Positions 3,825-60,867 of a DNA stretch of 64,000 bases are shown here, in pieces (the first letter of the stretch is position 1; every line of letters begins with the position of its first letter). The position numbers and the translations under genes are program-made. The stretch is taken from NCBI GenBank assembly GCA_015233395.1, contig JADFXV010000005.1, positions 1 through 64,000 on the forward strand. The letters run 5' to 3'. The notes below the pieces were generated by a model. The model made no database searches. It saw only the letters and a list, made by a program, of their open reading frames with translations, and was not told where the DNA came from. The DNA comes from Desulfovibrionaceae bacterium (GTDB taxonomy: Bacteria; Desulfobacterota; Desulfovibrionia; Desulfovibrionales; Desulfovibrionaceae).

Positions 3825-4052
3825 TGTTCGAGGCCGTCTTGGTTTTATGTTCCACGGCTGGCGGCCGCCTGTCCCGTCCCCGGTCGCGGGTCATTTGGAA
3901 ACGGGCGGATACTTTCGGTGGATACAAACGATACACCCTGACCTCCCAAAGAACGCCCCTTGGCTGAAAAAATTAGTCCCCGGTATTGCAACACATGATT
4001 ATTTCAGTGCTTTGAAACGACAAGGCGACCTGGCACGGCGGTTGCTTTATAA

Positions 4053-4175
4053 CTGGGAGCAAAAAGGAAAAACCTTTTTGCTCCCAGCGGCGACCGCCGC
4101 TTGGCCTCGCCAAAAGCGGGGCCGCACAAAGAAACGGCAGCGCGAACAGGAAGAAATTTTCCGCTCCCGTTGTTA
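4053..4175 (+). repeat. S-family four-hairpin element, copy A
   Basis: Four successive stems: CTGGGAGCAAAAAGG with its complement (4053-4086), GCGGC/GCCGC, GGCCTCGC/GCGGGGCC, and a weaker last stem ending TTTTCCGCTCCCG. The same order recurs at 8065 and 60688 with paired base changes. It sits between the ABC ATPase and the ZraP-like gene; no gene is seen in the remaining intergenic bases 3825-4052. Confidence 0.8.
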
Positions 4176-8046: not shown

Positions 8047-8064
8047 CCGCGCCCGCTCCTATTC

Positions 8065-8187
8065 CTGGGAGCATAAAGTTTTTAACTTTATGCTCCCAGC
8101 GGCGGACGCCGCTTGGCCCCGCGACGAGCGGGGCCGTATCAATAAACGGGAGCGGGAAAATGCAAAAATTTTCCGCTCCCGTTAATA
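8065..8187 (+). repeat. S-family four-hairpin element, copy B
   Basis: The best-formed copy. Stem 1 is CTGGGAGCATAAAGTT/AACTTTATGCTCCCAG, stem 2 GCGGC/GCCGC, stem 3 GGCCCCGC/GCGGGGCC, and stem 4 CGGGAGCGG(G)AAAAT/ATTTTCCGCTCCCG with a bulged G. It lies between convergent genes and includes the stop codon of the leftward amidotransferase-like gene, so it could serve as a shared transcript end. Confidence 0.85.
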
Positions 8188-57931: not shown

Positions 57932-58030
57932 ATGGATGCGCCGCCGTTGTCCGTTGGACGGACTCAAATCGCCAAGCGGCCGGCCGGGGTATTTTCCCCT
58001 GGCTTTGCCGCCGCAGGCTTCATTATATTA

Positions 58031-58105
58031 CCGGAAGCGAAAAGTATCGTACTTTTTGCTCCCGGCGGCAAACGCCGCTTGGCCCCGCCAAAAGCGCGCC
58101 GCTCC
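58031..58105 (+). repeat. S-family element, partial copy D
   Basis: Contains stem 1 (AAAAGTA-TCG-TACTTTT, ending GCTCCC), stem 2 (GCGGC-AAAC-GCCGC) and a damaged stem 3; stem 4 is missing. Stem 1 matches copy C most closely. It lies in the divergent gap between the FUSC and RRM genes. Confidence 0.7.
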
Positions 58106-58252: not shown

Positions 58253-58324
58253 CTCTCAATTCCAGCTGCACACCGGCATCCCGCCGTGGTGAAAATTTTG
58301 CTGGTCGTTGAGGAGAAGAGGGAA

Positions 58325-58597
58325 ATGGTTAAGTCTATTTATGTTGGCAATCTGCCCTTCAGCGCCACGGACGACGAAGTTCGCGACCTTTTCGCCCAGT
58401 ACGGGGAGGTCAAGGCCGTCAAAATGATCAGCGACCGCGAAACCGGCCGCTTCCGGGGCTTCGGCTTCGTGGAGATGGATGAGGCGGATGCCAAGCGGGC
58501 CGTTGAGGGCCTCAATGGTACGGATATGGGCGGCCGCTCGCTGCGGATCAACGATGCCCAGGAAAAGCCCCAACGCCCGAAACGCAACGACTGGTAA
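58325..58597 (+). CDS. Single-RRM RNA-binding protein
   Basis: A 90-residue protein that is one RNA recognition motif. RNP2 is SIYVGNLPF and RNP1 is RGFGFVEMD, with the aromatic residues used for RNA stacking. It ends in a short basic tail (KPQRPKRNDW). Such proteins occur in cyanobacteria and sulfate reducers and may take the place of cold-shock proteins. GAGGAG/GAGGG precedes the ATG at 58325. A strong terminator follows. Confidence 0.93.
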   Translation: MVKSIYVGNLPFSATDDEVRDLFAQYGEVKAVKMISDRETGRFRGFGFVEMDEADAKRAVEGLNGTDMGGRSLRINDAQEKPQRPKRNDW

Positions 58598-59248: not shown

Positions 59249-59325
59249 GCTCCCGTAGCTCAGAAGGATAGAGCGATCGCCTCCTAAGCGATAGGCCGTG
59301 CGTTCGATTCGCGCCGGGAGCACCA
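59249..59325 (+). tRNA. tRNA-Arg (anticodon CCT)
   Basis: 77 bases with acceptor arms GCTCCCG / CGGGAGC, a D-arm with AGCTCAGAAGGATAGAGC, anticodon stem ATCGC/GCGAT around loop CTCCTAA (anticodon CCT), T-loop TTCGATT, and an encoded CCA end. It decodes AGG. Confidence 0.95.
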
Positions 59326-60673: not shown

Positions 60674-60687
60674 TTGACCTGATATTA

Positions 60688-60807
60688 CTGGGAGCAAAAA
60701 GTATCGTACTTTTTGCTCCCACGGCGGAAGCCGCCTAACCGCGCTGACAGCGCGGTTATACTTATAAACAGGAGCACGAAAATTAAGAAATTTTCTGCTC
60801 CCGTTAA
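60688..60807 (+). repeat. S-family four-hairpin element, copy C
   Basis: Stem 1 TGGGAGCAAAAAGTA-TCG-complement; stem 2 GGCGG/CCGCC; stem 3 TAACCGCGC/GCGCGGTTA; stem 4 GGAGCA(C)GAAAATT/AATTTTCTGCTCC. Stems 3 and 4 differ from copy B by paired changes on both sides, and the bulged base in stem 4 is kept. Confidence 0.85.
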
Positions 60808-60867
60808 TAAAACACCTCGGCGCCTGGCGCATTCGCCTGGCGCCATCCAATCCAAGGAGTCCAAAAT

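Follow-up and report, generated by a model that had tools for sequence, protein, structure and literature searches.

A dispersed four-hairpin repeat of Desulfovibrionaceae genomes, probably a non-autonomous mobile element

Our question was what kind of element lies at positions 8060-8187 of contig JADFXV010000005.1, from the host Desulfovibrionaceae bacterium, where four hairpins occupy a unit of about 128 bp. An earlier note on this locus had offered a structured 3' RNA, a REP-like element moved by a RAYT, or a protein-bound DNA element. Note that positions refer to the window unless a locus (L) is named, the window being the whole 64,000-nt stretch analysed, which is contig C114 of the host genome (G000; 3.37 Mb in 158 contigs). 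Copies of the element are dispersed, occupy lineage-specific positions, are related to one another within genomes, and keep their structure through paired changes. We conclude that the element is probably a mobile but non-autonomous DNA repeat, about 128 bp long, bounded by terminal inverted repeats with TA edges.

Anatomy and distribution of the element

The window contains three full copies (4048-4175, 8060-8187 and 60683-60809) and a truncated copy (58026-58105), all on the plus strand. These agree, within a few bases, with the coordinates in the earlier note, and the stems quoted there are present. The copy first noted, at 8060-8187, has ends reading TATTC...TTAATA. Its hairpin 1 (8065-8099) is an end hairpin and a bulge-free, perfect palindrome. 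Hairpin 2 (8099-8112) pairs GCGGC with GCCGC, and hairpin 3 (8115-8135) pairs GGCCCCGC with GCGGGGCC. Hairpin 4 (8145-8183), the second end hairpin, has one bulged base; most copies keep it and, family-wide, it is mostly C. The first three hairpins, like the fourth, are read on the plus strand. On the minus strand, the stem-4 end (8182-8187) reads TATTAA and provides the TAA stop for a peptidase C26 gene (8182-9078). The copy at 4048-4175 is older, with several stem positions unpaired. That at 60683-60809 belongs to a young subfamily, with TAACCGCGC/GCGCGGTTA as stem 3 and near-identical copies elsewhere in the genome. The truncated copy retains hairpins 1 and 2, together with a broken hairpin 3, and hairpin 4 is missing. 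The window also encodes a tRNA-Arg (CCT), at 59249-59325.

In the consensus, TATTAMYGGGAGC runs into hairpin 1, followed by hairpin 2, hairpin 3, a linker, hairpin 4, and the TTAATA end. This TATTAMYGGGAGC motif is present at both ends as an imperfect terminal inverted repeat, edged by TA. Because hairpins 1 and 4 are alike when read from the outside inwards, the imperfect inverted repeat spans about 25 nt. Allowing up to one mismatch, the host genome has 80 end motifs per strand, compared with 5 and 4 for a reversed control. Similarly, the pattern CTGGGAGC..GCTCCC matches 5 times in the window, where 0.04 matches are expected. Relative to dinucleotide shuffles, the three full window copies fold strongly (z of -5.8, -8.4 and -10.7), and four stem-loops are readable in each. 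While the G+C content of the window is 64%, copies are mostly near 50%. The young subfamily has 10 members, including 60683-60809, and their flanks past the outer TA are unrelated. All 10, and most other copies, have TA at both termini.

A blastn search, with one copy as the query, found about 40 related places in the host genome. With a covariance model that we trained on 32 copies, and whose E-values are rough, we recovered about 66 full or partial host copies, plus weaker matches below these. The same approach, suggested in the earlier note, was fruitful beyond the host: the element occurs in at least 8 further Desulfovibrionaceae genomes, from 6 further genera. Full copies are present in G009 (dozens), G066, G022, G058, G042 (Desulfovibrionaceae bacterium UBA6814, DKEU01000078.1), G105, G109 and G046. 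In G109 and G046, there is a single well-structured copy each. Overall, 17 of 199 Desulfovibrionaceae genomes have matches, some of them weak. Among 297 genomes of the order, only 1 outside the family has matches, and these are weak. Of 122 copies, 114 have their nearest neighbour within their own genome (compared with 36 in shuffles), and young groups of copies are more than 90% identical. The four-hairpin plan persists in related genera despite changed letters. A covariance model, and not sequence, allows the architecture to be traced from genus to genus. No supported match was found in plasmids, phages or viral contigs. The element is also not described in the open-licence papers searched on Desulfovibrio with REP, MITE or palindromic repeats, and so represents a new repeat family for Desulfovibrionaceae with respect to that literature.

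Genomic context and sites of insertion

Only 11 of 132 copies overlap a called gene, the calls being approximate and from a home-made codon-usage caller; the others are intergenic or beside the end of a locus. The three full copies in the window do follow plus-strand genes, as the earlier note had stated, but genome-wide the element is found in every orientation. Where a copy has a called gene on each side (112 copies), the order of these genes is ++ in 22 cases, -- in 36, divergent in 32 and convergent in 22. Gaps with and without copies are also similar in kind, with co-directional, divergent and convergent classes numbering 63/30/22 around copies and 174/75/48 among other gaps.

G009 and G066 are two species of one genus. 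For six G009 copies (L201 3052 and 14836, L212, L216, L225, and L226), we compared the syntenic region of G066, aligned on at least one side of the copy. None of these G066 regions has the element. The empty orthologous sites are present in G066, where the intergenic DNA is too diverged for base-by-base alignment of a TA duplication. Abutting copies have one TA in common (L102 3576, L100 3001, and the C78 pair). This sharing is an indirect sign of insertion at TA. Duplication of the target site is suggested at most.

In the host, eight genes continue straight into the stem-4 end, where its TAA serves as their stop; for 7 of these, the reading is TAT TAA. One of the eight is the peptidase C26 gene (8182-9078), which has no ortholog, at an E-value of 1e-30, in 58 relatives. 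In addition, 5 copies in G009, G066, G109 and G058 begin directly 3' of a gene's stop codon. We infer that such stem-4 TAA stops are what would remain if the element had inserted into a TAA or TAG stop codon, at its TA. RRM-domain genes, 57% identical to each other, adjoin copies in the window (58286-58597) and in G009 (L203 4401-4664), but their arrangements differ. We take the presence of such a gene near both 58026 and a G009 copy to be chance.

A mechanism can be proposed on this basis. The unit is bounded by terminal inverted repeats, each TATTAMYGGGAGC leading into an end hairpin (1 or 4), with the two GC-rich hairpins, 2 and 3, in between. A transposase supplied in trans would recognise the hairpin ends. 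Insertion would occur at TA dinucleotides, sometimes within stop codons and, in such cases, the stem-4 end would restore a stop. The hairpins may then persist via recognition by the enzyme, via palindrome correction during replication, or both.

Paired changes in the four stems

The earlier note held that paired changes maintain the structure, and this is supported: each of the four stems has compensatory changes, both within genera and between them. In an alignment of 32 copies (A3), 15 of 42 pairs are changed on both sides, compared with 7.2 in shuffles. With 26 copies from 9 genomes (A6), the signal is strong. Briefly, 27 of 42 pairs are changed on both sides, against 13.0 in shuffles and at most 15 in slid controls, and every helix contributes. 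Note that, owing to the shared descent of the copies, cell counts are not independent. Using one copy per genome (9 sequences), we found 20 changed pairs, where 2,000 shuffles averaged 8.8 and reached 16 at most. The bulged base of stem 4 was correctly described as kept while its pairs change: it is C in 110 of 119 copies overall, with 59 of 64 for cross-genome copies and 51 of 55 for those of the host. This is the best hint of recognition. A protein-bound DNA element, as also raised in the earlier note, is possible.

Template switching can give compensatory changes without selection, and covariation by itself is thus no proof of function. Logically, the covariation could be a mutational by-product, with template switching between the arms of imperfect palindromes repairing mismatches and no selection on structure. 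We regard this as a serious prospect, although at somewhat less than an even chance. It concerns only the persistence of the hairpins, and is compatible with mobility. Hairpins can arise and be maintained through template switching (PMC8794818). Consistent with such events, the paired changes include adjacent pairs that change together in stem 1 (GG/CC to TT/AA), and G·U is no more frequent than A·C, apart from a few stem-4 positions. Conversely, correction should erase the stem-4 bulge, yet its C is kept. Palindrome correction by template switching could account for part of the covariation. The element could help to distinguish between such correction and selection acting on DNA hairpins.

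Known systems, candidate enzymes and competing identities

To place the mobile repeat among known systems, we used a published property table for ERIC, RUP and Correia (NEMIS) elements, which are of the MITE class (PMC2229807). Like these, the element is shorter than 200 bp, has terminal inverted repeats and TA at both ends, and is dispersed, mostly intergenic, with lineage-specific insertions. It differs in having four separate hairpins, and in keeping both this plan and compensatory changes across several genera. Furthermore, RUP has an IS630-type relative, whereas none was found in the host of our element. Three points count against a mobile repeat. First, G109 and G046 have one copy each, which is unusual for an amplifying repeat. 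Second, none of the empty sites could be aligned to reveal a TA duplication. Third, no mobilising enzyme was found.

Several sources of such an enzyme were considered and rejected. Spans between outward-facing end motifs, at L114 and L107, could have marked an autonomous element but have no evident transposase. No mobiliser encoded by a shared neighbouring gene was found among flanking genes. For an IS630 partner, PF13358 (IS630-type DDE_3) was not found in the host and 6 other carriers; among the carriers searched, only G046 has it. For a RAYT partner, PF01797 (Y1_Tnp) was not found in seven carriers (G009, G066, G022, G058, G042, G109, and G105), which include a genome with dozens of copies. 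The host has two PF01797 genes, both IS200/IS605-type. No GGGAGC hairpin was found at their readable flanks, one upstream end being beyond the contig. Hence, the RAYT raised in the earlier note is rejected. The mobiliser could belong to another transposase family, have been lost, or be carried elsewhere. The missing enzyme makes the spread of small palindromic repeats a testable question.

It is conceivable, although unlikely, that the four-hairpin fold and its bulge serve as substrate for an enzyme of transposition or recombination, of neither Y1 nor IS630 type, that reads single-stranded or cruciform DNA. If so, structure, and not sequence, would define a mobile element across genera.

We consider it improbable that the element is REP-like or derived from IS200/IS605, and moved as single-stranded DNA by a RAYT/TnpA protein reading a bulged hairpin. 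The hairpin ends and kept stem-4 bulge do resemble such systems, solo stem-4 hairpins occur, and the host has the two Y1_Tnp genes described above. Like REP/BIME/RAYT systems, the element is also composed of several hairpins, contains palindromes with an imperfect (bulged) member, and occurs between genes in many copies. However, REPs measure 20-40 bp and have a GTAG or CGTC tag (PMC3733652). Our element is a 128-bp unit with TATTA/TAATA ends and neither tag. Moreover, most carriers have no Y1 transposase and the host TnpA flanks, where readable, are without the element's hairpin. Of the REP-like proposal, then, the mobile palindromic repeat stands, but the RAYT does not.

A structured RNA that is co-transcribed with its neighbouring gene and then acts as a terminator, riboregulator or 3' stabiliser is highly improbable. 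While strong folding, compensatory pairs and the placing of the three full window copies 3' of plus-strand genes are in its favour, all gene orders occur, gap classes are alike with and without copies, and positions are not conserved. Nor did the element match any Rfam family at the gathering score. That G·U does not exceed A·C, outside a few stem-4 positions, counts against a structure that is read solely as plus-strand RNA. The 3' RNA of the earlier note is thus disfavoured. A mobile element of the ERIC/RUP/Correia kind fits better, because copies are almost all intergenic, in every orientation, grouped by genome and absent at all six syntenic sites, and because of the G·U frequencies. This serves as a warning that a dispersed repeat with covariation need not be a functional RNA.

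Finally, a DNA site bound by a protein of replication or chromosome organisation, and both dispersed and conserved for this function, can be largely discounted: the hairpin plan and bulge are conserved across genera, and single well-structured copies occur in G109 and G046, but the distribution is patchy (any match, some weak, in 17 of 199 family genomes), copy number ranges from 1 to dozens, and positions are not shared.

Other palindromes were seen alongside the mobile repeat. In the host, a second palindromic repeat, AATCGGGGGAGGAACCTTTTG...CAAAAGGTTCCTCCCCCG, has the stem-4 core GAGCRCGAAAATGAAGACATTTTCTGCTC nested inside. There are 4 near-identical copies and 1 variant (L115-L118 and L121; contigs C158, C139, C76, C92, and C147). 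Solo stem-4 hairpins, with the rest of the element missing, are found at L120 and L122-L127, and some have ends that are TATTAC or TAATA-like. L078, L079 and L083, from genomes of one genus, have a palindrome of 47 bp, which is TATTACCGGGAGCGAAAAGCATTTCCTGCTTTTCGCTCCCGGTAATA or closely similar. In the three genomes it is upstream of what appears to be the same gene; its position is seemingly conserved, unlike that of the four-hairpin element. Lastly, in a variant copy from G009 (L036), hairpin 1 is disrupted and hairpin 3 is extended into a long, perfectly paired stem, GTTATCAGCACGGCCCCGC/GCGGGGCCGTGCTGATAAC.
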